From Armatimonadota bacterium (GTDB taxonomy: Bacteria > Armatimonadota > Zipacnadia > Zipacnadales > FEN-943): DNA of 34,551 bases. How positions within the stretch are numbered: the first letter of the stretch is position 1; every line of letters starts with the position of its first letter. Made by a program: the position numbers and the translations under genes. Below the pieces are notes generated by a model that saw only the letters and a program-made list of their open reading frames with translations, did not search any database and was not told the origin of the DNA. The stretch spans positions 1 to 34,551 of the forward strand of contig PMZA01000005.1 of the NCBI GenBank assembly GCA_003170595.1. The letters run 5' to 3'. Shown here one piece after another: positions 9,548 through 34,551 of the stretch.

Positions 9548-9558
9548 CCCCCCCAGGG

Positions 9559-10701
9559 CTATCTCTCCGCGACAAAGACTCGCTCGACCATATCTCGCTG
9601 AGAGTGGCCATTGGAGTTGGCGAGGGCGTTGAGGTAGCGCCTGCCTCCAACTACTCGGTGAACACTCCTGTGCGTGATCCTCAGACCAACTTGCCTCGAG
9701 CGGCATATGTCGGCTAGCAGGTCACCGGTTCTTATGACGTCGGTGCGGCGCTCACCCTTGCTAGTCGTCGTGTGGCGGACGTCGCCCGCTATACAGACCA
9801 GTTTACCACTCCTCCTCAATGCCTTCGCTATCGCTGCGAACGCCTCCGTGAGGAGATCCCTGTAACGGTCGATGCTTTGCGTCTGGATATACTGCGCCCT
9901 GATGGTTGGGTAGCTGCGGTTGAGAAGCCACAGGCGCAACCGATTGTCCTTAGCGTACGTCTGAGCGGCGAGATATGGTGGTGACGTAACAACCAGATCC
10001 ACCCGCCCCGTCAACTCGGGGAAAGCCGTCGCGACAGCTGCCGCTGGAGCTTCCATCACATCGCCCGCTACTGATGGAGGCAACGGATCTCGAAAGCACC
10101 TAGCTGCCTTGGCCAATAGGCACTCTTGCACGCTGCGCAGGGGTGCAGTGAGACCATGCTCCTGCGAGTACCGCTGGACGTACTGCGGCGACATCGAGTA
10201 AGCATGTGACGAGGGTAGCGACAAAGAGTAAGATGCGTGGCCGTGAAGGATTCCCAGAAGAAGACCTAGAGCGACTGTGGCACAGCTCCTCGTGGCACGT
10301 CGCCCGAGATCGACGTCGTGTAGGAGCGCATCCCGCACAGATAGGATTTGGGAAAGCGTTGCAGGGTGGAAGAAAATGCGAACCTCGTCAGGCACGTCAG
10401 CGCAGTCCCCGTCGTCGGTTGGCAGACGGCGGATGTACGACTCAACGGCCCGGACATCGGTGGCGAGCAGCTTGGCCCTGCTGCAGATGACCGCCTCGGG
10501 CGCAACGTCGAGCCCATAGGCAGGACGGCCGAGAAGGCGCGCAGCCAGAATCGACGTACCTTTCCCGCAAAATGGATCCAGCACCACACCGCCGGGTCTA
10601 CCGAAGCGCCTGACCAGACCATAGGGCACGTGAAGTGGGAAAGACCCCGTCCGGGCCATCATCTCCTGCATCGAGTGGTCATACCGATCTGCGGTTGGCA
10701 T
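9559..10701 (-). CDS. SAM-dependent DNA methyltransferase (amino-methylating type)
   Basis: This 380-aa enzyme has SAM-binding motif I VLDPFCGKGTSILAA at about residues 38-52 and catalytic motif IV TSPPY at about 239-243. That order (I before IV) and the SPPY tetrapeptide indicate exocyclic-amino DNA methylation (N6-adenine or N4-cytosine). It is the first gene of the minus-strand operon with the PRTase and ORC-like ATPase, and no restriction endonuclease is recognisable beside it. It may mark self DNA for the system. GAGAGAAG lies directly 5' of ATG 10701, which I prefer to an in-frame upstream start at 10761. The target sequence cannot be predicted. Confidence 0.8.
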   Translation of the reverse strand: MPTADRYDHSMQEMMARTGSFPLHVPYGLVRRFGRPGGVVLDPFCGKGTSILAARLLGRPAYGLDVAPEAVICSRAKLLATDVRAVESYIRRLPTDDGDCADVPDEVRIFFHPATLSQILSVRDALLHDVDLGRRATRSCATVALGLLLGILHGHASYSLSLPSSHAYSMSPQYVQRYSQEHGLTAPLRSVQECLLAKAARCFRDPLPPSVAGDVMEAPAAAVATAFPELTGRVDLVVTSPPYLAAQTYAKDNRLRLWLLNRSYPTIRAQYIQTQSIDRYRDLLTEAFAAIAKALRRSGKLVCIAGDVRHTTTSKGERRTDVIRTGDLLADICRSRQVGLRITHRSVHRVVGGRRYLNALANSNGHSQRDMVERVFVAER

Positions 10702-14640: not shown

Positions 14641-16668
14641 CTATTCGAAGTCCGGGCCCGAACTCTCCTCCAGTTGTATCGCCAGCGACAATTGTGCAGG
14701 ACACCCTCGGTGGTCCCCCGCTGCAAGCGGACATGGCTCTCCCTGAAGCCTAGCCAGTATGCAGCACGGCTCCGCTGCCTTGTGGAGAATGAGCAGCTTC
14801 TCTCTGGATCGTGAGCACCCGACCAACAGGAGATTGCGGATGGCTTCACAAGCGGTGCCGTCGGCGCTCGGCTTCAGGTGGCGGGTATCCAGGCTTGCGC
14901 CACAGACGAAGGTGTAGTCGAACTCCCTACCCTTCGCAGCGTGCATCGTTGCCAACGTGACCCATGAGCGGGTCCGTCTCCGTCGTTCTCTCGCCACCGC
15001 GCTCTCGACAGCCCTCCAGGCTGCCGCACTGACATCCTCAAGCGTCCCTCCCGGATTGCGCGTGACGAAGCCCTCCAGGTCCCCGGTCCATCGGGCAAGC
15101 GGCTCGTCGAGAAACGAATCGGATGTCCAGATGGATACGCCCCGGCGGCTGTTCATGGCCTTTCGGATACCGACAGCCGCGTCGCTGACAGCCCGCATGG
15201 CTTCGAAAGGGGCTAAGCCGCACGAGAGTGCCTCGCCAATGGTCTTGGCGACCTTCGCCTGTCTCTGCCCGTTCCCGCGTTTCAGAGGCTGGGCCGTCGA
15301 GCCGAACCAAGGCCCATGGGCATCCTTGACTGTTACACGGCGCATCTGTTCCAGCGCATCGCCGGCAAGATGTCTGGCCTCGTCGACGGACCTGAGTCCC
15401 AGGACACCCTCCATGAGATAAGCCAGCGCCGCCAGGAACACGCCGACCTCTTCTTCAAGGCCGACGATTGTGTGCCGCAGAGCTACCCCGCCATAGCCCT
15501 GCCTCAAGGCTTGGGAGACGGCTGCAAGCAACGCCCAGGTCGGGCATAGTAGCCCCACTCGCTTGCCGACTCCAAGCGCATCACGAATTTCGCCTTTCAT
15601 CCCGCTGACGTACGACACCGGCCACTCTCCATCAGCAGAACCCGGGTGCTCGCCGCGGGCCTCCTCTATCGACCGCACCTGGATGCACGCTCCAAGTGCA
15701 TCCAGCCCGGATGCCGGACCGGCCGTGCTGCAGGCCTGCCTGATGGCGTCAGCGACTGCCTTGAGGCCTGGGGACGCCTCAGTGCGGGGGACCTCGGGCA
15801 GACGGAACCCGTCAAGCACTTCGGGCTCTCGCTCGCTCTTCAGACGTGAGAGTCGGACCTCCGGATCCGCACCTCGCCACAGATAGACTGCCTGATCAGG
15901 ATCGCACATGCAGACGAGTGTCGAGTCGTGTGCCAAGGCCTTGATGAACTCCCATTCAACCCCGTTCGTGTCCTGAAACTCGTCAACGAAGATGAAAGGG
16001 TATCGTGCGCCCATGTGGCGGCGGACCTTGCTCGAACCGGTCAGTGTTAGGTGGGCGAAGTACGGCCAGCTGTCATAGTGAAGCAGGCCGTCGCGATGAT
16101 GCCTGCCCAGCGTGTCCGCCGCTGCCTGAAGTGTGTCGAAGGAGCAAGCACGAACCCGTTGACCGTCCATGAGTCCAGTCACGATGCTTGTGGCGTTAGC
16201 GGCCTCCCACTGCTTGGCGCGGTCCTTCTTTCCCCGCGCGTACGAGGCCTTGGTCTCGTCGTTGATTTGGCAGAGGGCAGCATCGACCTCGTGCGGTAGC
16301 CATGTCCGCCACCGCCTGGGCACCCCACAGTAGCGGACGTAGCCGTCCAAGAGCCGCCGATAAAGCGAGTGGTAGTTAAGGACCGCCACTTGTGATGTTC
16401 GGGCGCTGCTCTCCGTTCGGGCATCCCTGACCTGCAGGGCGAGTTGCTCAGCCGCACTGACGCTGAAGGTAAGCACAAGCGCGCTCTGTTCCGCAGGTAG
16501 ACGTTCCGCTGCCTCGAGGGCGAGTCTGGCCGTCAGCCAGGTCTTGCCAGAGCCGGGGCCGCCTTGGATGAGCACCGTGCGATGTCCCCGATCGAAGAGT
16601 GCCGAGCGGATATCACTGATTGCTTCCTCGTTCCATTTCTTGTTGGGAGATGACACTTGAGCCGTCAC
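14641..16668 (-). CDS. gajB: UvrD-like superfamily 1 helicase, Gabija GajB-type
   Basis: This 675-aa SF1 helicase has Walker A GGPGSGKT (residues 36-43), Walker B FIFVDEFQDT (about 228), a CDPDQAVYLWRG motif, TMHAAKGREFDY (about 578) and the C-terminal LLLVGCSRSREKLLI. In Gabija defence, GajB works with the GajA ATPase-nuclease to sense and cut invading DNA. GTG 16668 overlaps the gajA stop as GTGA, so it is the likely start; the frame is open further up but there it only shadows gajA. It is longer than typical GajB (about 500 aa), with extra sequence in the middle. No own promoter is evident, and translation is probably coupled to gajA. Confidence 0.78.
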   Translation of the reverse strand: MTAQVSSPNKKWNEEAISDIRSALFDRGHRTVLIQGGPGSGKTWLTARLALEAAERLPAEQSALVLTFSVSAAEQLALQVRDARTESSARTSQVAVLNYHSLYRRLLDGYVRYCGVPRRWRTWLPHEVDAALCQINDETKASYARGKKDRAKQWEAANATSIVTGLMDGQRVRACSFDTLQAAADTLGRHHRDGLLHYDSWPYFAHLTLTGSSKVRRHMGARYPFIFVDEFQDTNGVEWEFIKALAHDSTLVCMCDPDQAVYLWRGADPEVRLSRLKSEREPEVLDGFRLPEVPRTEASPGLKAVADAIRQACSTAGPASGLDALGACIQVRSIEEARGEHPGSADGEWPVSYVSGMKGEIRDALGVGKRVGLLCPTWALLAAVSQALRQGYGGVALRHTIVGLEEEVGVFLAALAYLMEGVLGLRSVDEARHLAGDALEQMRRVTVKDAHGPWFGSTAQPLKRGNGQRQAKVAKTIGEALSCGLAPFEAMRAVSDAAVGIRKAMNSRRGVSIWTSDSFLDEPLARWTGDLEGFVTRNPGGTLEDVSAAAWRAVESAVARERRRRTRSWVTLATMHAAKGREFDYTFVCGASLDTRHLKPSADGTACEAIRNLLLVGCSRSREKLLILHKAAEPCCILARLQGEPCPLAAGDHRGCPAQLSLAIQLEESSGPDFE

Positions 16669-18602
16669 CGAATCGAGAGCGAAATGATTTTCCTGCCCTC
16701 CGAGGCCGTCATACTGCAGGTAATGAAGCAATGAAGGTTCTCGAACAGGCAGCGGATGCCGGGAGGCACGCCGCCGGCGTCGACACAAGCTTGCGCCCAG
16801 ATCCTCCCGTACCTTGCGCTCTTGGCGAACACATGCTGATCGTCGGTGCCATCGCCCCGCTTGCCGCGACACCGATCGGCGAACCAATCACGAACGGCTT
16901 CGGAGACATCCTGACGTGCCTGGCCACATAAGTTCACCACGCATTCGATGACCGCACCGTCCGCTGCCTTCGATCCATCCGCTCCCGGCAAATGCTCCCC
17001 CAGATGCCTTGGAAGGCCCTTGCGTACCCATTCTCCGAACGAGCCGCCCTCCGGGGGAACGTAGATCTCAGACCAAGCCGTCAGCACTCGTCTGAGCACT
17101 TCCTCCGGCATAGCAACCGTCATCATGCCTTCGAAATCCCGGCCCGGATCCTCGTCGGGCCAATGCATGGCGAGGTCGGCGACGCGCTCGATCAATGCTT
17201 GCTGGTCCGCGTGTCGTCCGCCTTTGCCGCCTGCATTGGGGTCAAGATCGTAGAGCGCCACCACCTTGATGCCGTAACTCCGCAAGACCCGGGCGATAGG
17301 TGCAATGTCGGTGATGCCCCCGGCACTAATGAGCGCCACATCCGCGGCGTCAAGCCCGCGGTAGCTTCCGACCGTCTTGGCCGCCCAACAGTCAAATACC
17401 GGAAGAGCTCCGGCTTCGGTCGAGCCCTCGACCACTAGTGCTGCCCTGGCGAAGAGGGCCGACGAACAGACATCCCAGTAGCGTTGGGCGTTCTTTCTGA
17501 CCTGCTCCGCCTCCACGCAGCCCGCTTCAGAGGGAACCGTCCTCGCAGTCAACTCACCGTCTCGGTTGTCAATCCGCCATACCTCTTGGGGGCGGCAGGC
17601 TTGCACGATGTCCGCCGAGTGGGTGGCTATGAAAGCCTGGGGGCGGTCCGAGTCGATCCCTTCCGCCAGGCCATGGAGCATCGTTCGCTGCGCCTGGGCG
17701 TGGAGCCCGACCTCCGGTTCGTCGATCGTCAAGACCTGGGCACCCCGTACGCCTTCAGCTCCTGCCTTGATCTCGGCGAAGGCTGCCCGTGCCGCGATAG
17801 CGATGGCTCTCTGCATTCCAGCGCCTTGACGACTGAGCGGAATGCGTTGTCCCGACTCGCCAAAACCCAGCTCCATCATCCTCTGGGCCCAAGCCTCAGT
17901 GACTGCTGCGGTGATCCCAAGCTTGATGTCTCCCGCAGCTGAGGGCAAGAGCCGGCCAACTTGCTTGGAGATCTGCGACGCCAGCTCGTTCAGCCCATCT
18001 CCGGACCCGCTTCCGCTGGCGAACCCCTCGGCCTGGGCGACCAGGCTGTCGATGAAGGCAGGGATACGGTCCTCCCGGCGAGGGTCCCAACCAGCCGCCC
18101 GCGCAGCCCTCGCGAGCTGCGATCTGGTGGACAGGCTGCCCACCTCCCAGAGGGCTTCGTTGTATGGGGCGTCCCAGAAACCGAAGGCCTGCCGCTGTCG
18201 TTGAGCAACGCGCCTGCAGTCGGATTGGCCTGGTGGGTCGAACTTCGGAAAGAACCATACTGCGCGGTCCTCGGCCTCGGGCCGATCCGGCTGATAGAAG
18301 AGCGCCACTCGGAGAATGCAAGGGTCCTCATCCAAACCGGCAAGATCTGCGTCAGCCGGCCCCTCGGCCCAGGAGGGCAAGTCGGCGTATGGCTCCTCAA
18401 GTTCCGGGAACACGGCCCATTCCTGCTTAGACGGTTCGAGTATCGCGCCGATCTTCACAGTGAGGCCGCGCTCCCGCGTCAAGCCGTAGATGTCATAGCG
18501 GGTGAAGAGGTCCTCACCTCGATAGGCTTGCTCGACACCCAAGAGCAACTTGAGTCCCTCGAGAATGGTCGACTTTCCGGCGTTCGCACGTCCGACCAGC
18601 AC
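16665..18602 (-). CDS. gajA: OLD-family ATPase with TOPRIM nuclease domain, Gabija GajA-type
   Basis: This protein is 645 aa from GTG 18602. An ABC-like ATPase comes first: Walker A GRANAGKS at residues 4-11, signature LSRQGAGMQRAI at about 256, Walker B VLTIDEPEVGLH at about 289 and H-loop FIATHSADIV at about 325. A TOPRIM domain follows, with glutamate in LVVEGSTEAG (about 390) and acidic pair in VVALYDLDP (about 450). The family cuts DNA when nucleotides are depleted. The usual N-terminal strand (LDIENFRGIKQFTWHPAP) is encoded in frame upstream to about 18686, but no ATG, GTG or TTG lies between it and an in-frame stop. The true start is therefore non-canonical (ACG 18680 or CTG 18665), or the gene is frameshifted near 18675. 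GGAGG lies just upstream. Confidence 0.78.
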   Translation of the reverse strand: MLVGRANAGKSTILEGLKLLLGVEQAYRGEDLFTRYDIYGLTRERGLTVKIGAILEPSKQEWAVFPELEEPYADLPSWAEGPADADLAGLDEDPCILRVALFYQPDRPEAEDRAVWFFPKFDPPGQSDCRRVAQRQRQAFGFWDAPYNEALWEVGSLSTRSQLARAARAAGWDPRREDRIPAFIDSLVAQAEGFASGSGSGDGLNELASQISKQVGRLLPSAAGDIKLGITAAVTEAWAQRMMELGFGESGQRIPLSRQGAGMQRAIAIAARAAFAEIKAGAEGVRGAQVLTIDEPEVGLHAQAQRTMLHGLAEGIDSDRPQAFIATHSADIVQACRPQEVWRIDNRDGELTARTVPSEAGCVEAEQVRKNAQRYWDVCSSALFARAALVVEGSTEAGALPVFDCWAAKTVGSYRGLDAADVALISAGGITDIAPIARVLRSYGIKVVALYDLDPNAGGKGGRHADQQALIERVADLAMHWPDEDPGRDFEGMMTVAMPEEVLRRVLTAWSEIYVPPEGGSFGEWVRKGLPRHLGEHLPGADGSKAADGAVIECVVNLCGQARQDVSEAVRDWFADRCRGKRGDGTDDQHVFAKSARYGRIWAQACVDAGGVPPGIRCLFENLHCFITCSMTASEGRKIISLSIR

Positions 18603-19008: not shown

Positions 19009-22000
19009 ATGGATAGCTCCACAGATCTAGAGGGGCAGGAAGCCCTCCCCAGACATGCCCAGATGGGTCAGCTCCGGGCAGAGCACCTGCGCGTCTACAC
19101 GCTTCTGCAGAACGTTGACGCCCAGTTTGCCGACTTCTACCTCGGTGGGGCGCTCCTCTTGTCATTGGGCCTACCTGACTCGGCCAAGGCGCACTTCCTG
19201 GCCTACGCCGGGCGGGAGGTCTGTGACAGGCTGGATCTTTGCCTGGGCGCAGAGCGCGTCGTAGGGGAAGATGGCAAGATCACCGCTAGCTCCAAGTTCT
19301 CGGGGGTAGTGCAGGCAGGAGAGCACTACCCAGTGGTCGAGGTCTGGGACGATCTGAGACAGGGGTTCAATGCGTCCGCGCATCTGCGAGCTCCGGGCCA
19401 AGCCCCTCCCAGTGCAGACTACTTCGCCGATCTGTTCGACCGGCTTACGAGCGTGTTGCTGTACCTGTTGGAGCCTCACTACGAGACCATCGATGAGCTC
19501 GACGCCGTCTTGGGCCAGGGGGCCCCTGACCCCGAGACCGTGGGCCATCTCGTCGAGATGCTGTCCAGCCCGGCCAAGAGAGCTTACTTCTTTGGTAGGC
19601 TCTCATCGTCAGCTTGGTTGGCTCCGCTCGATCATGAGGGCTTTTTCAGCAGCCCCCCGAACGCGATCCATAATGCTGAGGATGGGACCGTCCGTCTAGT
19701 CGCTTGGCCAGAGGGAAGGTACCTCGCACGGGCAGCTGAGGCAGCGCCGGAAGAGGTCTGCGAGATAGCCGTCCGTCTCATGACCCAGCCTTCGCCTGCG
19801 ATCGACAATCCCTGGGTAGTGAACGTCTTCATTGACGCGGCGATGCTCATGCCCCCTCTCCTTGCATCCGGGATCGCCCACGAGTTGCCTCGGTTCTTCG
19901 GGTTGATCGGGGCCGACTTCATCGTGATGAGGTCAGTCGACCTGATTAGGAAGCTCGCCGATGGCTCCGAACCCGCCGCAGCTCTGAGACTTCTCGACAA
20001 GACTCTCCAATTGCACGCCGAGCCAAGGCCCGGATGGGAGGCGATCGGCGGAGATGCCAATCTGAAGCGGGCCGTGCCTCTCTGCGGCGAATGGGAGTAC
20101 CAGCACATGCTCGACGAGGCAGGTCCGAGCGTGGTGGCCTCGGCTGGGCCGGACGCGATCGCCATGCTGTGCAAGCATCTTGCAGCAGCGGTGTGCATCG
20201 ACCACGGGCGCGGTTCGGGGCGAGGCTCCTATATGTGGCGGCCCGCGATCGCTGGCGGCGGAGACGGCAACGCCGACTGGGTCAAGAACGCGCTGGTGAC
20301 CGCCATACGGGACGGAGCCCAGGCGCTGGTAGATGCTGACCCAGCGTCCGTTGCTTCCATCTTTGATGTCCTGGAGAGGAATAAGTACCCCGTCTTCCGA
20401 CGGATCGAGCTGCACTTGCTTGCCAGCAACTCGCCTCTGGCAGATGACCGATCTCTGGAGCTTCTCACCGATCGCGAGTTGTTTGACGATCACGAAGTGG
20501 CCGAGGAGTATGAAGCCCTGACGGGGCAACGTTTCGGCAGCCTTACGCCAGACCAGAAGGAGATGATCTTGGGTTGGGTGCAGGGCGGCCCGGACGAACA
20601 GCGGATGAGGGACAACTACGAGAAACATACTGGTACTCCAGCTGAGGACGAGATGGTCCAGCGGTGGAGGGAGGAGTGGCAGCTCGAGCGTCTGCGCTCC
20701 ATTCGGGAGTCTCTTCCCGCGGAGTGGACAGAGCGCTACGAGGAACTGGCGGACCGTCACGGCGCTCCGCAGAGCCCGGCAGAGCGCAGGGGTTCCATGC
20801 GCTTCATGTTCGTTGGCCCGGTACCGTTCAGGACCCATGACGAGCTCGGCTCGATGACGGTTGAGGATATCACCACGTTCCTGAAGGCCACTCCAGAGCC
20901 GACCCAAGACTTCCACGCCCCGACCCCCGAGGGTCAGGGCCGCGTTCTGGCTGAGATAGTGAGGTCGCGGCCGCAGGAGTTCGCTGAGCAGGCCCTGCGG
21001 TTTCACGGTCTGCGGCCCACCTACGTCCGGCATCTCATCGAGGGGCTTACCGACGCCTGCAAGCAGGACGTCGTGTTCCCGTGGCCCCCCGTGCTAGAGC
21101 TCTGCCTGTCGGTGGTGCGTGAGCCCCTGCCTCAGACTCTCCCCGGTCCGCGGCCTCATCTGGAGGACGACCCCGACTGGTCGTGGTGCCAGAAGGCGGT
21201 GCCTGGACTAGTCAGGACGGGGCTCCAACGATCAGGAGGCAGCATACCGTTCGACCTCCGCGAACTGGTGTGGCAGTGCCTGGAGCCTTTGGCCAAGCAC
21301 CCGCACCCGACCCCGGAGGACGAGGCGAGCTATGCGAGTATGGGCCCGGCGGGCACTGCCATCAACACTGTTCGAGGGCAGGCACTTGAGGCTGCCCTGG
21401 CCTTTGCGGCCTGGTGTGTCCAGAAGATGCACCCAGAGCAGTCATGTTTCGGCCAGTACGCGGGGGTCATGGATGAGCTTGGTCCTATCAGGGCCGTCCT
21501 AGAGACGCACCTTGACCCGATCCACGAGCCTTCGCCGGCCGTTCACTCAGTGTATGGCAAGTTCTTTCCGCTGCTTGCCTGGATCGACCTCAACTGGGCC
21601 CTAGACAACAGACCTAGGGTATTCCCACCAGACGAACAACTCCGAGACATGCGATCGGCGGCATGGGAAAGCTACCTGCTATTCGGCGGTCTCTATGTTG
21701 GCCTCGTGGATGCCCTGCGGGAGGAGTATGCGTCGGCGTTGGACGAGGTGTGCCAGATCGGGGAAGCGTCTGACGTCGCCGACCGGGGTTCGGCCGGAAG
21801 ACTCGCCGAGCACATCGCGACCATGTACCTTTGGGGCATCGAGACTCTCGCAGGACCGCTTGTGTCGAAGCTATACCACGAGGCCCCTGTGAAGCTTAGG
21901 GCCCATGCCGATAGCTTCCTCGGAAGATCCTTCAACAGAGCGGCCGGAGTGGAGAGGGAGTACCTGGAGCGAGTACTGGCCCTCTGGGAGTGGCGAATCG

Positions 22001-22440
22001 ACGAGCTGTCCGCTGCGACAGCGGCCACCGAAGACCGACTGGAGCTGCGGGCCTTCGGCTGGGTCTTCCAGATCGATGCCCTGGACCCGGAGCGATCGCT
22101 GAACCTGTTAGCTCGCACGCTGCGACTGACAGACGGGACCACCGACTGGGACGCCGGCGTCGCCAAACGACTAGCAGTGCTCGCCGACTCCTATCCCCTC
22201 CAAGCCGTGCGGGCACTTAGCCTCACGATAGGCGAGAACAGGCAGGATTGGGGATTCTACTCGGTTGTGAGGGAGAGCCAGGCAATTCTCTCGGTCGCGA
22301 TCCACTCGGAAAGCCGCGAGGCGCAAGACCTCGCAGTCCAGTGCATTAACGAATACGGAAGACGAGGCGAGGACAGCTTCAGGCCTTTGCTGCAGGAGCT
22401 GCGAGAACGTCGAGAGCAGGATGAAGGTCCCGCCGAATAG
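19009..22440 (+). CDS. Large helical protein of unknown function, candidate defence gene
   Basis: This is a 1143-aa protein with no P-loop, nuclease or methylase motif that I can see. Long runs of amphipathic helix, leucine/alanine-rich segments and repeated W/L/P patterns suggest alpha-solenoid (HEAT/TPR-like) structure throughout. Notable stretches are AYFFGRLSSSAWLAPLDHEG near residue 190 and the C-terminal LNLLARTLRLTDGTTDW and YPLQAVRALSLTIGENRQDW. These resemble, from memory, C-termini of large proteins found in defence islands; I cannot assign a family. It diverges from the Gabija pair and precedes the ADP-ribosylglycohydrolase remnant by 85 bp. ATG 19009 gives the longest frame but has no strong ribosome binding site; ATG 19063 is an alternative. 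Confidence 0.75.
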   Translation: MDSSTDLEGQEALPRHAQMGQLRAEHLRVYTLLQNVDAQFADFYLGGALLLSLGLPDSAKAHFLAYAGREVCDRLDLCLGAERVVGEDGKITASSKFSGVVQAGEHYPVVEVWDDLRQGFNASAHLRAPGQAPPSADYFADLFDRLTSVLLYLLEPHYETIDELDAVLGQGAPDPETVGHLVEMLSSPAKRAYFFGRLSSSAWLAPLDHEGFFSSPPNAIHNAEDGTVRLVAWPEGRYLARAAEAAPEEVCEIAVRLMTQPSPAIDNPWVVNVFIDAAMLMPPLLASGIAHELPRFFGLIGADFIVMRSVDLIRKLADGSEPAAALRLLDKTLQLHAEPRPGWEAIGGDANLKRAVPLCGEWEYQHMLDEAGPSVVASAGPDAIAMLCKHLAAAVCIDHGRGSGRGSYMWRPAIAGGGDGNADWVKNALVTAIRDGAQALVDADPASVASIFDVLERNKYPVFRRIELHLLASNSPLADDRSLELLTDRELFDDHEVAEEYEALTGQRFGSLTPDQKEMILGWVQGGPDEQRMRDNYEKHTGTPAEDEMVQRWREEWQLERLRSIRESLPAEWTERYEELADRHGAPQSPAERRGSMRFMFVGPVPFRTHDELGSMTVEDITTFLKATPEPTQDFHAPTPEGQGRVLAEIVRSRPQEFAEQALRFHGLRPTYVRHLIEGLTDACKQDVVFPWPPVLELCLSVVREPLPQTLPGPRPHLEDDPDWSWCQKAVPGLVRTGLQRSGGSIPFDLRELVWQCLEPLAKHPHPTPEDEASYASMGPAGTAINTVRGQALEAALAFAAWCVQKMHPEQSCFGQYAGVMDELGPIRAVLETHLDPIHEPSPAVHSVYGKFFPLLAWIDLNWALDNRPRVFPPDEQLRDMRSAAWESYLLFGGLYVGLVDALREEYASALDEVCQIGEASDVADRGSAGRLAEHIATMYLWGIETLAGPLVSKLYHEAPVKLRAHADSFLGRSFNRAAGVEREYLERVLALWEWRIDELSAATAATEDRLELRAFGWVFQIDALDPERSLNLLARTLRLTDGTTDWDAGVAKRLAVLADSYPLQAVRALSLTIGENRQDWGFYSVVRESQAILSVAIHSESREAQDLAVQCINEYGRRGEDSFRPLLQELRERREQDEGPAE

Positions 22441-25182: not shown

Positions 25183-26650
25183 TCAGTCCTCGCCCAGCAG
25201 CTCCCGCAGATCGGCTTGGAGGTACTCGTCGCTGGACAAGAAGAGCTCCCTCACCTCGTCGCTGATTGGCACCTCGTTGCGGTCTTCCGCCCCGCACCAC
25301 GCTCGGTACACTCCCGCCAGCCACAGATACGCATCCAGATCGCGGTCTGACAGGCACAGAGACATAAGCGAATAGGGCTATGCAGTTGACACAAGTAAAG
25401 GCAAGAGAGACGGCTTCATCAACAGCGTCCCAACCGCATGTGTCTCGGGAGTCATCGACCTCGCCTATCAGAAGGCGACCAAATGAGGCATCGGCTTGGG
25501 CAAGTGGGCACCTCAAGGGGCGATTAGGTGGCCGTCAAGCCTCGTGAAAGCGCCTTTCAAGCTACACGGCATCATATTAGCAGTCCTCGGCAACTTTGAT
25601 AGCCTGGGTTCCGCCAACACCTACTTAGGAGCTCAAATGACGGGCCCGTCGGGCCAAGGCCACCTACTTGTGTTAACTGCATAGCCCTATAAGCGAAAGG
25701 TATCTCGCCGCCCGAGCGAATGGAACATAGGAGACGTCTAGCTCCGCTCTGGTTCTGCCGAGATGGTGCCTCAAGGACTCGACGGCCCAGCTGTCATAGG
25801 TGGGCACGTACCCGATGGTCGGAACGTGGAGCTGCACGAATACCGACGCGAACTGGCGGAACTCCACCGACCGACCCGAGGGTCGGGATATGAGCTCGAC
25901 GAGGCGGATGGGGTCGTCCGGCGGATCCCGCAGGACCTCGTGGATATGCGTGGCCATCAGCCCGGTGTCTGGTAGTGGGCCCTCGCAGAGAGCCTTCGTA
26001 CCCTCTACAAGGGTCACGATACCCTCGTAGTCTCGCGGGGGGCCTGGATCACGGCCAGGCACGAGCACGGGGCCACTCTGAGCAAAGCGACTGGTCATCT
26101 GAGAGCATAGCCTCGACGCCGCTTCAACTTGGGTAAGCCATGGAGGAGTGAGCCCGAACGGCACCAAGTTTGGTGGCTGGCACATCCCGGCATCGCCAAG
26201 CTCGATCCTCTTCGATTGGGCCGCCACGCGGTCCTTGAGCCATCCTACGTCACCAACGCCCTCGAGAGCGCCCGCTATCGCGCCCGTTGCCGCCGACAGC
26301 GCGATGATGTTGAGGACCTTGGTGTTGATGGGGCCGCCCACGTCATCGACCGGATCCCCACAGCTGCATCTCCACACGATCAGTGTTTCGTCCTGCTCCG
26401 CGTCCTCGGAGAACGCAACCCGAGCCTCGAGATCGGGAAGCTCGAGTGCGAGCTGCCATTCGGCGGCTTCCGCCCATAGTTGGCGGAATGCTCCCCAGCA
26501 GAACGCGTCGGAAGCGCCACCGAAGATGCCGACAACGTCCGGAGGACAGTGGGGCAGGTAGACCTCCACGCCAACGACTTCGTGCCCGGCGTGGGGACCG
26601 CTTCCCTGTTCCCACTTCTTCTCGTCTGGAGCCCGTTTCTCGTCGGCCAT
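25183..26650 (-). pseudogene. Unrecognised gene split by a MITE; 380 aa when restored
   Basis: The first part begins MADEKRAPDEKKWEQGSG at ATG 26650 (GGGAGAC upstream), and as written it terminates inside the inserted element after ARYLSLIGLCS. The rest of the gene lies beyond the element at 25365-25183 and reads MSLCLSDRDLDAYLWLAGVY on to a stop. Removing the 317-bp element and one 8-bp target copy leaves exactly 1143 bases, 381 codons, reading ARYLSLMSLCLSDRD without a break. The protein includes VGVEVYLPHCPPDVVGIFGG (about 26-45), a hydrophobic stretch LNIIALSAATGAIAGALEG (about 112-130), and acidic segments. No family recognised. It lies 54 bp downstream of the methylase gene, so it may be an accessory gene of the DISARM-like operon. 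Confidence 0.78.
25373..25689. mobile_element. 317-bp MITE with terminal inverted repeats and 8-bp target duplication
   Basis: The ends are inverted repeats of about 25 bp with one mismatch, each starting TAGGGCTATGCAGTT. The element is flanked by perfect direct copies of TAAGCGAA (25365-25372 and 25690-25697). No transposase gene fits inside, so it must be mobilised in trans. It interrupts a gene, and its precise removal restores the reading frame. The parental IS family is not assigned from these ends. Confidence 0.9.
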
Positions 26651-26704: not shown

Positions 26705-29700
26705 CTAACCATCTGACTGCCGCTTCCACGCCTCCAGGACGAGGCGGCGGGTGCGGTACTCGCCGAAGGCCTTCTCTTCCTTGTTCCTCAGCACCCGGAA
26801 GGTCTCGCCGGGGAAGTCGATGGCCGGCTCGGCCGGCAGCAGGTGCGGGCCCGAGCAGGTCGGGTCCTCCCAAGGGTCCAGGATGTCCGCCAGTTCCAGC
26901 TCGCTCAGGCCGTGCGGGTCCAGGATGTAGCGGAGTTGCTTGCGGTTCAGGCCGTACAGCCGGGCGTACCAGGCGTCCAACTCCGCCCGCAGCACCGCCC
27001 GGCGGTCGTCGCTCCACTTGAAGGGCGGCAGGGGGCAGCCATCGGCGGCGATCTCCGCCCACTCGGGCGGGTCCCAGGTATGCCCGCCGGTCTCGCCGCG
27101 GTTGGCCTCCCATTGCTGCTGCAGGGCCTGCCGCAGAGCGTCATCTCCCTCCCGCCATACGTCGTCGGCGAAGGCCTTGATGTCCCAGGCGGTGTAGGTC
27201 AGTTCGACCACGCGGGGGACGATGAAGAGCAGGTCGGCGGCGGCGTAGGCGTCAGGCGGGATGATGGGGAGTTGTCTCACGTAGAAGATGTTCATTGTGG
27301 CGGCTGCTAACTTGCCGCGAATGACGTAGTCCAGGATTAGGGAGTTGCAGTCACCGAGGAGGCATCCCACGAGTGGGGAGGGCCGATCCACCGCCATGAG
27401 AAGAGGGATTTTGTCTCCAATGGCAGCGATCGGCAGGACAGTGAACGTCGCCGTTCGTGCGAGAGACTTGCTTGTCACGCTTCGGAACCCAAGCAGCCAC
27501 GATCTGTCCCACCGGGGAGCGAGTACGTTCTGCACCTCGGAGTAGGAGACGTAGTAGCAGGCCAGTGGAATGTATGATGGGTCTTGGTGTTGGGATGCCG
27601 AGCAGTTTGGGAGCATGTGCGGTCTCTGACCGTTGCAGTCCTCGTACGAGGCGAACCGATGGTCGAATTGGTGCACCATCTTGCCTTCGTACAAGGGCAC
27701 CCAGTGCGTATTCCCATCCACGAAATGGGCTCCCATTCGCACGAAGCCCTCCCCCTGAAGTTCAGCCGGTGTCTTGAAGAGGTGGGAGGCGGTGTTCGTC
27801 ATGAACATCAGGAGAAATCTGGCACCCCAAGGGCTTACGCCCGTGACCTCGTTCTCCAGAACAGGCACACGCCGGTGCACCTCCATAGTCAAGTCGGCAT
27901 CTGGTCGGGTCCGGAACACAGGAGCCGTCTGCGTATTGGGATTGATGACGGCCAGGTCATCGCGAGTTAGGCGGAAATGGCGGATGGCCTGGCGTACGTC
28001 GCCAAAGGTCTGACACTCGTAGGCGAAGTCGGCATGCTCACTCTTGGCCTCGCGACCCGTCAGTGTGAGAGCACAGAACCGGAAGTTGTGGAGGACGTCT
28101 GCGAAGATCCGTTTTTCGTTGACGAATGCACACAGGGAAACAAGCGTGCCCGTCGCCATCAGGTCCTGGAAGAACGTCTTCGCAGTCTCGTCCGACGCTA
28201 CGCCAGGGGGAACGACAAGCCCGGCCCTGCCTTGCGGTGCCAACAGCATCCGTGCGAACTCGGCAAAAAGAGGAGCCAGGTTGGTTCGGCCTCCTTCGGT
28301 TAGCGGGAAGCGACCCGAGGCATGGACGAAGTTTTTCGCCTTGTCGCTCTCGCTTACGGCCAAGTGGTACTCCCTGAGTAGGTCCGGCCGGGATTCTGAC
28401 AACCGTTTGATGAGACGGGATCGCTGGGCCATATTGGCCGCCGCGGCCACGTCCGGAGAACGGTTAGCAAAGAACTCCTGCGGGTCAAGCTGCATCTGGT
28501 CCCACGGCGGATTGGAAAGCACGCAATCGAAGCCGCCCTGCTCGAACACCCCGGGGAACTCCAGCGGCCAATGGAAGAAGCGGTTGCGTTCGGCCAAGGC
28601 CCAGACGTGGTTCCGCATACGGGCATCCACGGCCTCCGGGCTCTGCATGTATCGACGCAGATCGTCAGTGGTGGGGATGCGGCGGCCCGCCTCTGCTTCG
28701 GGCGTCAGTTCGGCGAAGAACGCCGCCGTCCAGAGGTGACACGCCATTCGCTCTCGCCAGAGCGTGCTCCCCTCTTGCTGCAGCCGCTCGTAGGCCTCCC
28801 TCTTGCGGTGGATCTGGTCGGGCGTGTCATCGGCGAGGCCGTCCAGCTCCCGGCGTTCCTCAACCAGGCGATGCACCTCCGCGGTGGCGTCAGCCAGGGC
28901 GAGGCCGAGCTGGCTGCGTTCCTGCTTGTTCCGCTTCTTGATCGCTGACGCGAGCTTGCGGTCGTCGCCGGAAACGGCGTCGAAGGCGGCGTCGGGGATG
29001 CCATCGTCCAGCACGGCGAGGTCGAAGACGCCGACGAGGGAGTCGCCGCAGCGGATGCGGTGATCCAGGAAGGTGAGGGGCTTGCCGCCTGAGTGCCCCT
29101 CGATCCAGAGGGCGACCTTGCACAGGTCCACGGCGAGGGGGTTCTTGTCCACGCCGTAGATGCAGTGGGTGATGACATCCCGCACGGCGGCCCGCACAGC
29201 ATCGGGAGCGGGGGCCTCCTCGTCGGTGCGGACCTTCGCCAATTCGGTGCCGATCCTGCGAGCGGCGGCAAGGAGGAAGTGGCCGGAGCCGCAGGCCGGG
29301 TCGCAGACTCTCAGCGAGAGGAGGGCCTGCTCACGCTCGGGCGGCTTCGTCGCCTGGAGGCGATCCTCGATGACCGGAACGAGGGCGGACTTGACGAGTT
29401 CCGCGACCAACTCGGGGCGTGTGTAGTACGAGCCGGTGGTCTTGCGTTCGGTGCCGGCACCGAAGTGGAAAGTGAGCCGCCCGTCCTGGCCGTCAACGAT
29501 GGGCTGCAGGTCGAGCAGGGACTCATAGACGCTGCCCAGCTCCTCGACGTCGAGGTGGCGATAGTTGACGCGGGTCGGCACCCGCTGGTCGCGGGGCACG
29601 AACCACGATAGGGTGTGCATCGCGGTGAGCAGGTCGCGGTTGTTGAGGTAGGCGTCGCCGAGGGCGGAAGTGCGGGCACAGTCGAACAACTCGCCGTTGA

Positions 29701-30778
29701 GCGGCGGGAGGCCGAGAGCCTCGGCGAACTCCTCCTTGCAGAGCGAGAAGAACAGAGCCCGCAGGTTGCGGTAGAGATCGCAGAAGCGTTCCGGGGCACT
29801 GAGCGGCTCGTCGGCGAGGGCACGGAGCCGCTGGACCGTGAAGTAGTCGCGTGCGGAGTGATCCTGACCGTCGCCCCCGCGGAGCAGTCCCCGCTCCTCC
29901 GCCACCATCAGGAATAGCAGGCGGTAGATGAGGTACAGGAGCTGCTGGTAGAACCCCACGGGAGTGAGCCGGCCGGAGCGGAGGGCCTCCCGGAGGTCCT
30001 CGTTCTTCGCATGGGCGAGGAAGCCGTTGGCGAAGATGGAGATGGCCTGCTCGACGGCACCGCGGAGGCCGTCGCGGATCCGGCCGCCCTGATCGATGCC
30101 GATCTGGTGGTACTTCTCCAGCAGGCAGGTGTCCCCGTCATCCATCGCCTTCGGCATGCGGGTGCGATGGACGAGGCGGTAGAAGAGGAAGAACTCGTCC
30201 AGCCGCTCGCCCTCGAGCATCTGCTGGAGATCGAACTCGATGAAGGCCGGACGAGTGAAGTAGGACGAGTCGCGGAGCAGGCGGAGGGTGTTGCCGTTGG
30301 TGACGATGGCCCAGAGGTGGTCGGTGCGGTTGAGATAGTCCTGCATCATCGCGTGCGGCGACATGTTGCCGCGGCCCGAGGGCGGGCGGGAGCCGAGGTC
30401 CTGGTCGAAGGGCTCGATCTGGACGGGGAGGTCTTCGTCGGTCTCGCCAGTGCGGTGGCTGATGCGGTAGAGGCGACCCTCGACATCGACGCTCTGCGGC
30501 TGGTAGGCCAGCCGGTAGCCGAGAGCATCGAGCAAGGGGATGACCCACTGCTCGCGGGTGATGGTGGTAACGCTCTCGCTGGACGACCGCTGGAGGCGAC
30601 GCTGGAAGGCATCCCAGTAGGAGCGGACATCTGACCAAAGCGACGAGACCTCGTCCACCAGTGTGCGGCGACCCTCGATCCCGAAGTCGGAGGGCTTCTG
30701 GCCCTCGGCGTCAGCGATGGTCTCCAGGAAGTCCGGGGCGAGCAGGCCGCCCTCGATCTTGATGCAGGTGGAGTTCAC
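26705..30778 (-). CDS. drmMI: Large N6-adenine DNA methylase, DISARM DrmMI-type
   Basis: This 1357-aa methyltransferase has a long helical N-terminal region, then SAM motif I VCDPACGSGHFLLAAARR at about 490, and catalytic NPPW (CVLSNPPWDQ) at about 757, the PglX/Eco57I-like arrangement. The C-terminal 400 or so residues, with YVSYSEVQNVL and a late RKQLRYILDPHGLSELELAD, probably read DNA sequence. In class 1 DISARM, DrmMI methylates host DNA and works with a SNF2 helicase and DUF1998 protein to block unmodified phage. GTG 30778 overlaps the helicase stop as GTGA, so I prefer it to the upstream frame opening at 30958. BREX PglX is an alternative, but no other BREX genes are present. Confidence 0.75.
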   Translation of the reverse strand: MNSTCIKIEGGLLAPDFLETIADAEGQKPSDFGIEGRRTLVDEVSSLWSDVRSYWDAFQRRLQRSSSESVTTITREQWVIPLLDALGYRLAYQPQSVDVEGRLYRISHRTGETDEDLPVQIEPFDQDLGSRPPSGRGNMSPHAMMQDYLNRTDHLWAIVTNGNTLRLLRDSSYFTRPAFIEFDLQQMLEGERLDEFFLFYRLVHRTRMPKAMDDGDTCLLEKYHQIGIDQGGRIRDGLRGAVEQAISIFANGFLAHAKNEDLREALRSGRLTPVGFYQQLLYLIYRLLFLMVAEERGLLRGGDGQDHSARDYFTVQRLRALADEPLSAPERFCDLYRNLRALFFSLCKEEFAEALGLPPLNGELFDCARTSALGDAYLNNRDLLTAMHTLSWFVPRDQRVPTRVNYRHLDVEELGSVYESLLDLQPIVDGQDGRLTFHFGAGTERKTTGSYYTRPELVAELVKSALVPVIEDRLQATKPPEREQALLSLRVCDPACGSGHFLLAAARRIGTELAKVRTDEEAPAPDAVRAAVRDVITHCIYGVDKNPLAVDLCKVALWIEGHSGGKPLTFLDHRIRCGDSLVGVFDLAVLDDGIPDAAFDAVSGDDRKLASAIKKRNKQERSQLGLALADATAEVHRLVEERRELDGLADDTPDQIHRKREAYERLQQEGSTLWRERMACHLWTAAFFAELTPEAEAGRRIPTTDDLRRYMQSPEAVDARMRNHVWALAERNRFFHWPLEFPGVFEQGGFDCVLSNPPWDQMQLDPQEFFANRSPDVAAAANMAQRSRLIKRLSESRPDLLREYHLAVSESDKAKNFVHASGRFPLTEGGRTNLAPLFAEFARMLLAPQGRAGLVVPPGVASDETAKTFFQDLMATGTLVSLCAFVNEKRIFADVLHNFRFCALTLTGREAKSEHADFAYECQTFGDVRQAIRHFRLTRDDLAVINPNTQTAPVFRTRPDADLTMEVHRRVPVLENEVTGVSPWGARFLLMFMTNTASHLFKTPAELQGEGFVRMGAHFVDGNTHWVPLYEGKMVHQFDHRFASYEDCNGQRPHMLPNCSASQHQDPSYIPLACYYVSYSEVQNVLAPRWDRSWLLGFRSVTSKSLARTATFTVLPIAAIGDKIPLLMAVDRPSPLVGCLLGDCNSLILDYVIRGKLAAATMNIFYVRQLPIIPPDAYAAADLLFIVPRVVELTYTAWDIKAFADDVWREGDDALRQALQQQWEANRGETGGHTWDPPEWAEIAADGCPLPPFKWSDDRRAVLRAELDAWYARLYGLNRKQLRYILDPHGLSELELADILDPWEDPTCSGPHLLPAEPAIDFPGETFRVLRNKEEKAFGEYRTRRLVLEAWKRQSDG

Positions 30779-33702
30779 TGGGCCGCCCCCTTCGGCACTG
30801 GCACCAGCACCAGTACGCCGAGGAGGTCGGGCGGCTTCTGTGGCTCGATGCGTACATGCCCGGCCTTGGTGAGGCTGCGGATGCGGCGGTGAGATTCGGT
30901 GAGCCGTCGGGCCCGCTCGTCGAGCACGGCCGAGAGCTGCTTCTGCAACGGCTCCCACCCGGCGAGCATCTCGGCGACGACCTCGGTCTTCTCCTGGGCG
31001 GAGAGGTTCCCAACTGGGGCCGCCTCATCCACCAGCTTCTTGGCGTCGTCGAGGGAAATCGGCTCGATGTCAGGCAGGAGGCCACGGTATCCCCAGACGA
31101 GGGTCTCCTCGGCCAGGCTGGGCGTCTCTTCGTCCCGCTCGTGGATCAGGTAGCGTAGGCGAAGCAGGAGCAGCGTGGTCCGCCGGGTGACGGCGTCGGT
31201 GCGGATGGCTCCGCAACGTGCCGCCGCCGACTGGTCGGAAGATGGGTAGAAGGCCAGGTCCATGAGATGCTCGGCCAGGCACTCGATGAGACGATGGCTG
31301 CGTCCGACGTAGGCGACGCCCTCGGGGACGGGCGTGTCGAAGGTGATGGGCCACGGATCGGGCACGTTGCCGAGAGCCTGCCTCACCGCTGGCGGCAGGG
31401 GGGCGATGTCGATCTCCCAGACCTCGGGGCCGGTCTTGCGAGAACGGCTGCTCCGGCGGAAGCCGAACGTCAGCCGCTGGCTGGCCTCGAGTAGGAAGCT
31501 TCGGACCTCCTCCGGGTCACCCAGGACTCCGTCGGTCTCGGACAACTCTCGCTGCACTTCGTCGGGCTTGATGCTGCGTTGGGCGAAGCGGGAGCGTGTC
31601 TCCTTCTCCCGCTCGGCGGCCAGGTCCATCTGGTAGTGGAAACTGCGGACGACCTCGGACGCCATGTCGGACCGGTCGAAGAGCGAGAGCTGTCGCTTGC
31701 CCTCGTAGGACCGGGCGAAGACGGACTTGAGGACCGTCTCCATGACGGTCTCGCTGTCGACGGGGACCGGGACATAGATGCCCAGGGCTTTGTGGATCTC
31801 GCGGGCCTTGCGGATCAGGACGTCGAGAACCGCCCCGTCCACCGGGTTGTCCTGGCCGTAGATGAGCACGGTGCGGACGGTGGGCGAGTTCTGGCCGAAG
31901 CGGTCGACGCGGCCCTCCCGCTGTTCGAGGCGGTTGGGGTTCCAGGGCAGGTCATAGTGGAGGACGGCGTTGAAGTGCTCCTGGAGGTTGACGCCCTCGC
32001 TCAGGCAGTCGGTGGCCACCAGGACACGCCTCGGGGCCTTCGCGAGTTCTGCGAGCTTCAGACGCCGCTCGTCTTCGCCGACGGTGCCGTTGATGGACGT
32101 CACCCGGAGGTCTCGGAACTTCTTGCCCAGGGCACCCTGGAGTTCCTCCGCGACATAGTCGCTGGTCGCTATGTATCTACACCAGACGATGGGATGGTAG
32201 CCGTCACGCAGGCAGGCTCTGACAGCCTCGGCTGCGGCTTGGAGCTTGGCATCGTGTCTCCCCCGCAGCTCGCCCGCACGCTTGGCGAAGGCTCTCATCC
32301 GGCGACGGTCGGCATCGGGCCAGGATGAATCCATCTCCTGAGCGTCGAAGATCGCCGTAGGAGGGGCGTCAGCCGATGGCCCCGCATCGGTGGAGTCGTA
32401 GAGGGCGGGCTCGAAGGTCGCTTCGAGTTCGTCCTCGGTGGATGCGTCAAGGGCTTCGGTGGAGAAGCCCTCGTCTCCGCCCAGTCGTCGGAGCAGGCTG
32501 GCCTCCGCGGCGGCCGGCGATGAGGTCACGCACCGCATGAGGGCGAGGGCGGACCAGAAACGCATCCTTCGCTTCCAGCCTTTGAGCGTCTCCGCGGAGT
32601 CAACGAGGCCGCGGGCGAAGTCGTACACGTCGGAGTAGAAGCTACGGTAGGCGTCGGAAAACGAGTACGGGTACTCGCCGGACGGTGCGGGCCACGGGTC
32701 CCGCTCGGGGAAGGGCGTGTCCTCTCCCATCCACCGCTTCACGTCGGGTCGCCGACGCTGGACGAAGTGCTTCGACAACTCGTCCCGTTCGTCGTCGGAC
32801 AGCTCAGCCAGGTTCAGGTCAGCAAACTCCGGTCGTAGCAGCCCGAGCAGGGAGAGGAACGACTCCTCGACACCGCTGTGCGGCGTGGCGGTGAGAAGCA
32901 CGAGGTGGCGGTTCGGGTCACTGGCAACTTGGCACACCAGATCGTGCCTTTGCTGCTGAGAGCGTGCCCGTCGATCGCCCGGCGGCCGGGCGGCCCCGTG
33001 GGCCTCGTCGACTATCACGAAGTCGGGGCAGTGCAACAGAAACGTCTCACGGTATCGCTCGCTCTTGATGGTGTCGATGCTGGCCACGAAGTGCCGGTGT
33101 TGCTGGAAGATGCTGCGGTCGGCCGGGCAAAGGCGTTCAAGTCTGGCGACGGTCCCCGAGCGGATGACTTCAGCCTCCATCTGGGCCTTCTCTGCGAGTT
33201 CCCGCTGCCACTGATCGCAGAGGTAGGGGGGACAAAGAACGGCGAGTCGCCGTACCTCTCCACGGGCCATCAACTCACGGCCGAGCAATATCCCTTCGAG
33301 GGATTTGCCTACTCCGACATCGTCCGCCACCAGCAGTCGAGCGGTATCCTGCCGGAGCCCCATGAGCATCGGGACGTATTGGTACGGGCGGGGTCTGACG
33401 GACAGATGGCCCAGCGACCTGAAGGGTGTCGCCCCATCCCGCAGGAGCAGACGGGCGGCCTCCAGCAGCAACTTGACGGCGGCGTGGTCCTGCACCGCAC
33501 TGGCGTCTGGTGCCCTGAACTGCGTCTGTTCGACCCGCTCGAAGAACAAGCTGTAGGCCATCGTGTCGGCGAGCGACCGCAGGACGCCGCAGACCTCCCT
33601 GGCACTGCCCCCGATCGGGCGGAGCATCATGAGCCCGGGCTCCTCCGATGGCAGGACAACCCAGTCCCGTTCGCGGTACCGCACCAGCGTGCCGGGGTTC
33701 AA
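30775..33702 (-). CDS. drmD: SNF2-family helicase, DISARM DrmD-type
   Basis: This 975-aa SF2 ATPase has motif I LVADDVGVGKSLEG (about 125-138), motif II IVDEAHG (about 232), motif III LLTATPHSG (about 272) and the helicase C-terminal signature PNRLEQREGRVDRFGQ (about 595-610). Beyond it is a 350-residue C-terminal region with charged helices. DrmD is the helicase specific to class 1 DISARM and translocates on DNA rather than unwinding it. TTG 33702 forms a TTGA overlap with the upstream stop, and its own stop forms a GTGA overlap with the methylase start. The three genes are therefore one translationally coupled operon. Function is by family; activity is inferred. Confidence 0.78.
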   Translation of the reverse strand: MNPGTLVRYRERDWVVLPSEEPGLMMLRPIGGSAREVCGVLRSLADTMAYSLFFERVEQTQFRAPDASAVQDHAAVKLLLEAARLLLRDGATPFRSLGHLSVRPRPYQYVPMLMGLRQDTARLLVADDVGVGKSLEGILLGRELMARGEVRRLAVLCPPYLCDQWQRELAEKAQMEAEVIRSGTVARLERLCPADRSIFQQHRHFVASIDTIKSERYRETFLLHCPDFVIVDEAHGAARPPGDRRARSQQQRHDLVCQVASDPNRHLVLLTATPHSGVEESFLSLLGLLRPEFADLNLAELSDDERDELSKHFVQRRRPDVKRWMGEDTPFPERDPWPAPSGEYPYSFSDAYRSFYSDVYDFARGLVDSAETLKGWKRRMRFWSALALMRCVTSSPAAAEASLLRRLGGDEGFSTEALDASTEDELEATFEPALYDSTDAGPSADAPPTAIFDAQEMDSSWPDADRRRMRAFAKRAGELRGRHDAKLQAAAEAVRACLRDGYHPIVWCRYIATSDYVAEELQGALGKKFRDLRVTSINGTVGEDERRLKLAELAKAPRRVLVATDCLSEGVNLQEHFNAVLHYDLPWNPNRLEQREGRVDRFGQNSPTVRTVLIYGQDNPVDGAVLDVLIRKAREIHKALGIYVPVPVDSETVMETVLKSVFARSYEGKRQLSLFDRSDMASEVVRSFHYQMDLAAEREKETRSRFAQRSIKPDEVQRELSETDGVLGDPEEVRSFLLEASQRLTFGFRRSSRSRKTGPEVWEIDIAPLPPAVRQALGNVPDPWPITFDTPVPEGVAYVGRSHRLIECLAEHLMDLAFYPSSDQSAAARCGAIRTDAVTRRTTLLLLRLRYLIHERDEETPSLAEETLVWGYRGLLPDIEPISLDDAKKLVDEAAPVGNLSAQEKTEVVAEMLAGWEPLQKQLSAVLDERARRLTESHRRIRSLTKAGHVRIEPQKPPDLLGVLVLVPVPKGAAQ

Positions 33703-34551
33703 GGCCGCACCCCCTCACCGAAGACATCGGGATGCTCAGCGATCTGCTCCTCGAGGCCCCGGTCGTAGCGGATCGTGATGACCCGATATCCGAGTTCCCG
33801 CAGTCTGCGTCGGGCTGCCTCGTCCCTCCCTTGCTGTTGAGGCTGATCGTGCACACTCCCGTCGCAGAACACGCAGACGTGCAGGCCTTCGTAAGCGAAG
33901 TCCGGCGTGCACTCGGCTTCGGGCACGTGCATCTGAGCGTGCGAAGGCAGGCTCCGTCGAGTGCGGTAGAGGTGGTCGATGAACTGCCTCTCAAGGGCCG
34001 ATCGAGAGTCCGTCTCGCTCATCAGCCACTGACACTGCTCGTCGTAGGAGCGTCCGGCTATCTCGACCCGGACCCGCCCGCCCTTCAGGCTTAGCAGAAG
34101 GTCCCGCACGAGGTGTCTATCGAGGAGTCTGTGGTGTCTTTGGTTGTAGTAGGAGAGCAGGCAGTCATAGCAGGCCCTGGCACAGCCGTGCACCTCGTCC
34201 TCGGGCGGCCGCATGTCCTCGCCCGTGTCCGGGTCGAAGTGCATGATCTCCAGGGCCAGCGATGCGACGCCCGAGAGGGCGTCCGGCTCGTCCACCAGAC
34301 GCCTGAGCACTCCCAGCCCTCCCTCGGCCGCTTCCCATATCAGGATTCGACGCCCCAGTCCCTCCCCGATGACTTCCGAGCCCAGCTCGGACGACTCCAC
34401 CTGGTACCGGGCAGCGACCCCGGCGACGAGGGCGTACTGAAGCGTGTAGACGAAGGAGTTGGTGGTCGCCTCGTCATCCGGGTCTCCGATGTCGGGGTGC
34501 ACGAGGACGGCGTTCGAGGTGTTCCTGACGAACAGCCGTACATAGTGGCGG
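33699..34551 (-). CDS. DUF1998 (DrmB-like) protein with C-terminal nuclease-like domain, partial
   Basis: The gene enters from beyond the right edge and ends at 33699; the frame is open to base 34551. The visible 283 or so residues hold the DUF1998/MZB-type cysteine cluster HGCARACYDCLLSYYNQRHH followed by LLDRHL, typical of DrmB and of helicases such as MrfA/YprA. After it comes a C-terminal domain with an early glutamate (ALERQFIDHLYR), TPDFAYEGLHVCVFCDG and LRELGYRVITIRYD. This looks like a Vsr/DUF559-type PD-(D/E)XK nuclease fold. Such a nuclease tail is not standard for DrmB as I know it. Position directly upstream of drmD supports a DISARM-like identity; a longer YprA-like helicase is possible. 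Confidence 0.68.
   Translation of the reverse strand, partial: RHYVRLFVRNTSNAVLVHPDIGDPDDEATTNSFVYTLQYALVAGVAARYQVESSELGSEVIGEGLGRRILIWEAAEGGLGVLRRLVDEPDALSGVASLALEIMHFDPDTGEDMRPPEDEVHGCARACYDCLLSYYNQRHHRLLDRHLVRDLLLSLKGGRVRVEIAGRSYDEQCQWLMSETDSRSALERQFIDHLYRTRRSLPSHAQMHVPEAECTPDFAYEGLHVCVFCDGSVHDQPQQQGRDEAARRRLRELGYRVITIRYDRGLEEQIAEHPDVFGEGVRP

Follow-up and report, generated by a model that had tools for sequence, protein, structure and literature searches.

The region analysed here (the window) is the whole of a 34,551-nt stretch of Armatimonadota DNA. Read from the sequence, it contains a 317-bp non-coding element at positions 25373-25689, bounded by the terminal inverted repeats TAGGGCTATGCAGTTGACACAAGTA (25373-25397, plus strand) and TAGGGCTATGCAGTTAACACAAGTA (25665-25689, minus strand), which are identical at 24 of 25 positions. 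The element is flanked by perfect 8-bp direct repeats, TAAGCGAA (left copy, 25365-25372; right copy, 25690-25697), whose sequence fits the pattern WWNNNNWW. The initial annotation had described 25-bp inverted ends and a perfect 8-bp duplication at this position, and both proved exact to the base. A scan of the window for 11-bp inverted-repeat seeds spaced 150-5000 bp apart returned 122 pairs, and a perfect flanking 8-bp direct repeat was found for this pair only. We therefore dismiss a chance origin of the inverted ends and the duplication.

The GC content of the element is 55%, versus 64% for the window. Its longest stop-free stretches are 65 and 54 aa, and neither gave a Pfam match or meaningful similarity to a transposase. 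By these searches no recognisable gene, hidden peptide or transposase remnant was found within the element, and the earlier claim that it has no internal gene was borne out.

The element lies inside a gene on the minus strand. The 5' part of this gene (25673-26650) is now a truncated frame of 325 aa, consisting of 320 native residues followed by IGLCS read from the element, and its 3' end (25183-25372, about 60 aa plus a stop codon) is detached. When the flanks were joined, with the element and one target copy removed, we obtained a single frame from 26650 to 25183 that encodes 380 aa plus a stop, the 381 codons that had been proposed.

When 291 genomes of the phylum were searched with the 5' part, relatives were found in nine other genomes, along with one paralogue in the window's own assembly (G000). 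Eight loci (L094-L100 and L103) are collinear with the joined frame and align without a break over the insertion point. The initial annotation had noted that homologues lacking the sequence at 25183-25365 as their C-terminus would speak against a split gene. This objection falls away because the detached piece alone retrieves the same eight loci (at most 54% identity over 57 aa), and all eight homologues share the C-terminal 60 aa; the gene is cleanly split. The protein had no match in Pfam or PADLOC, and one scan of viral contigs returned no relatives of it. The insertion would presumably have cost it its function.

The window is rich in defence genes, which occupy the stretches 6504-9706, 14641-18602, 19009-22440 and 26705-34502. 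They include a PRTase-CE and ORC-CDC6-like pair, a Gabija-like GajA/GajB pair, a weak Dsr1-like protein, a DrmMI/type IIG-like methylase, a DpdE/DrmD-like helicase and an MrfA/DruE-like C-terminal piece.

The initial annotation had called the element a MITE and had suggested a search of the genome for further copies. In G000 (6.45 Mb, 553 contigs, 84.5% complete), about 11 distinct sites carry the element or its end; the count is of insertions of this terminus, some of which could hold a longer relative with the same end rather than the MITE. Further stretches of the element on contigs C160, C401, C209 and C534 are 100% identical to the window copy. The terminus of the left repeat recurs at eight contig ends, and the element's 15-bp terminus lies at the ends of C1, C98, C168, C354, C478, C489, C500, C522 and C542. 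This location is expected, since assemblers break at repeats. The full 317-bp length could be read directly only in the window copy and in C160, where it is present as two halves around a nested insert and lacks the last 2 bp, because the assembly contains the remaining copies only in part. Relatives of the element were found neither in plasmids nor in phages, and its end did not turn up in viral contigs.

Three pairs of contig ends could be matched through shared 8-bp duplications: C1 with C489 (AAGCGGAA), C168 with C500 (TTGCCCAA) and C522 with C401 (AAGGACAA). When C168 and C500 were joined at the duplication, over 1000 codons could be read in one open frame across the junction, which indicates that a second gene has been split by insertion. 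At this site, unlike in the window copy, a TTGAC version of the terminus is present on both sides. It could be guessed that the autonomous partner of the element resides there.

Taken over all distinct sites, the targets conform to WWNNNNWW in 10 of 11 cases, in a region of 64% GC (binomial p ~3e-17). Purine-rich stretches like AAAGGCGAAAGG were seen beside the target in the flanks of C209, C401 and C489, and such stretches may be a favoured intergenic target repeat.

The element is thus short, lacks a gene, has terminal inverted repeats and a target-site duplication, and is present in many copies at unrelated sites. These data uphold its description as a MITE, with identical sequence in multiple copies of one genome, 8-bp duplications at several sites and ends of a recognisable family (see below). 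The view that the insertion is recent also held, as the duplication is perfect and every partial copy in G000 is 100% identical.

The copy on C160 is interrupted by a 4397-bp insert (L026, C160:10199-14595) with the ends GGTAATAACATACTTGGCGCACCA / GGTAATAATATACTTGACACACCA and an 8-bp duplication, CACCTAAT. This insert encodes its own IS1595-family transposase with a zinc ribbon, and its cargo consists of an EcoRI-type adenine methyltransferase, a GmrSD_N-HNH nuclease and a SocA/Panacea protein; it has the appearance of a restriction-like module carried on a small IS1595 transposon. The copy on C534 runs into a different repeated terminus, TGTTTGACGTCAAGTATTTCTT (L035, C534:17821-17842), which occurs in exact form at two other places and as further near-matches with 2-3 mismatches. 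This sequence is probably the end of another multi-copy insertion element in G000.

The family to which the element belongs had been left open by the initial annotation, and a search for insertion sequences with the same ends identified it as IS1595. A 21-bp core of the terminus had one match in the whole GTDB contig collection, on JALGSS010000397.1 of a Candidatus Zipacnadia MAG, which corresponds to contig C541 of G020; this genome and that of the window belong to the same order. In G020 some 40 bp separate the terminus CAGGGCTATGCAGTTGACACAAGTAGGTGG from the end of a DDE_Tnp_IS1595 frame, the remnant of a transposase gene. The similarity extends inward from the right repeat: a 30-bp stretch of the element (bases 287-316) is a 97% match to the transposase-proximal end of this remnant. 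In addition, the first 15-18 bp of the element are the same as the ends of several IS1595 elements or differ from them by 1-2 bases, and some of these elements occur in other genomes of the same phylum.

Members of the IS1595 family make 8-bp duplications, and their transposases have an N-terminal zinc finger (PMC8101967). Duplications of this length are present at the window copy and at three other sites in G000, and the terminal repeats are of IS1595 type, matching ends in G020, in G102 (another genome of the phylum) and in Legionella antarctica. The complete IS1595 element on a plasmid of the latter, which came up among the relatives of the G020 transposase, is 990 bp long, with ends CAGGGCTATGCAGTTGACTAACC and the duplication TTATTATT intact at 8 of 8 positions. 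Perfect 8-bp duplications also flank IS1595 elements of an Enterobacter plasmid and of Methylocella, as well as ISCsp2 and ISAcr1, and several of these four have related ends. As no sequence for a zinc ribbon and DDE_Tnp_IS1595 transposase is present inside the window element, it is a derivative of the family and not an autonomous member.

Another possibility is that the MITE derives from some other family of insertion sequences that makes 8-bp duplications (such as IS66, ISL3 or ISAs1) and that its ends resemble those of IS1595 by coincidence. Duplications of 8 bp also occur outside IS1595, and no partner transposase has been assembled in G000. However, this is very unlikely given that the first 15-18 bp agree so closely with several IS1595 ends and that the sole match of the 21-bp core in the GTDB contigs adjoins an IS1595 transposase remnant.

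With respect to the partner, the fragmented assembly of G000 yielded no autonomous IS1595 element with the exact ends of the window element (TAGGGCTATGCAGTT). This absence is weak evidence, since the assembly is 84.5% complete and in 553 contigs, and repeats fall at contig breaks. G000 has two PF12762 genes, on C160 and C54. The C160 transposase is unsupported as the direct partner because its element has different ends (GGTAATAA...); the C54 transposase is likewise unsupported, as no matching inverted ends were found around its gene. In G001, which belongs to the same family as the window genome, the near-match GGGCTATGCGGATGACAGAAGTA was rejected as a comparable end, as it differs at 3 bases (the immediate flank was examined). 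In this genome an IS1595-like terminus that resembles TGGGAGTATTCAGTTTACT is repeated about 15 times, on contigs C77, C281, C324, C330, C614, C698, C730 and others; no inverted partner end was present in the pieces fetched around these sites.

Comparable elements were found elsewhere in the phylum. In G102 there are three 288-bp elements (L120-L122), two of them with perfect 8-bp duplications. Their ends are also those of a full-length IS1595 element of 1017 bp that G102 carries and that encodes a 307-aa transposase. The similarity between these MITEs and the IS is limited to about 25-40 bp at the ends. In G020, a 309-bp element on C80 (L124) has the duplication TTCCGAAT and a 170-bp stretch that matches the end region of the G102 IS at 71% identity. 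Three of the four copies in the two genomes therefore have perfect 8-bp duplications. Like the window element, these MITEs are of similar size with IS1595-type ends and 8-bp duplications; in contrast, their interiors are unrelated to it and their terminus is slightly different (TGGGGGTATGCAGTTGACTC). With the 288-bp and 309-bp elements standing beside the window element, it seems that the phylum has given rise to IS1595-type MITEs on more than one occasion.

Considering these results together, the element is almost certainly a MITE that derives from an IS1595-family insertion sequence and would be moved in trans by an IS1595-type transposase. It retains only the 25-bp ends, which an IS1595-type DDE transposase, presumably supplied in trans by an autonomous partner, would bind and cut. 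The transposase would insert a copy at an 8-bp target edged by A/T (TAAGCGAA) and duplicate the target. In the present case, the insertion brings in a stop codon, located five residues beyond the junction, and thereby removes the last 60 aa of the 380-aa protein. Mobilisation in trans and this order of events are what we infer from the arrangement of the locus and its relatives.

It could be speculated that the MITE serves as a reversible switch, in which precise excision restores a gene of the phage-defence neighbourhood so that defence varies between cells. The split gene is located about 55 bp downstream of the DrmMI-like methylase and the DpdE/DrmD-like helicase, on the same strand, and the duplication would permit exact restoration; however, the other insertions are in unrelated places, and IS-type elements usually excise precisely only on rare occasions. 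We regard such a switch as highly improbable, and there is just as faint a prospect that selection has favoured the insertion as a means, perhaps a reversible one, of silencing an accessory gene within a phage-defence operon. If that were true, excision of the MITE would give some cells of the population a defence component back. That the inverted ends and interior are instead a conserved structured RNA or regulatory hairpin, an objection the initial annotation had itself raised, has a negligible chance of being correct: the ends do pair strongly in single strand, but no Rfam family matched, the predicted fold of the interior is like that of shuffled sequence (z -0.12), and the sequence is found at several unrelated sites, where the flanking 8-bp duplications differ.

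An IS1595-derived MITE is therefore the reading we retain, and it documents a recently active family of such elements in an uncultured bacterial lineage, with similar-sized MITEs that appear to have formed independently in two related genomes. The insertion has also left a freshly broken gene in a defence-rich region, and any annotation or functional reading of this region should allow for it. Apart from the record of the MITE family and the broken gene, the locus illustrates textbook insertion biology, clear but ordinary.

The closest known system is the IS1595-derived MITE of Haloquadratum walsbyi, whose partner is ISHwa6 and which is 165 bp long and present in 7 copies (Kamoun et al. 2013, PMC3852290). 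It has 25-bp inverted repeats and 8-bp direct repeats (PMC3852290). Both this MITE and the window element are short, non-coding and multi-copy, with 25-bp ends, 8-bp duplications and, presumably in the case of the window element, an IS1595 partner. They differ in that the former is a 165-bp element of an archaeon while the latter is 317 bp long and occupies about 11 sites in an uncultured bacterium, and in that the assembly that holds the window element lacks its partner. The IS1595 element of Legionella antarctica plasmid pTUM19329-1 (NZ_AP022840.1) resembles the window element in its end (CAGGGCTATGCAGTTGAC, compared to TAGGGCTATGCAGTTGAC in the window) and its 8-bp duplication; on the other hand, it encodes a 305-aa transposase and the window element encodes none. 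An IS1595-derived MITE with 25-bp ends and an 8-bp duplication has thus already been published, and the window element adds a new one.
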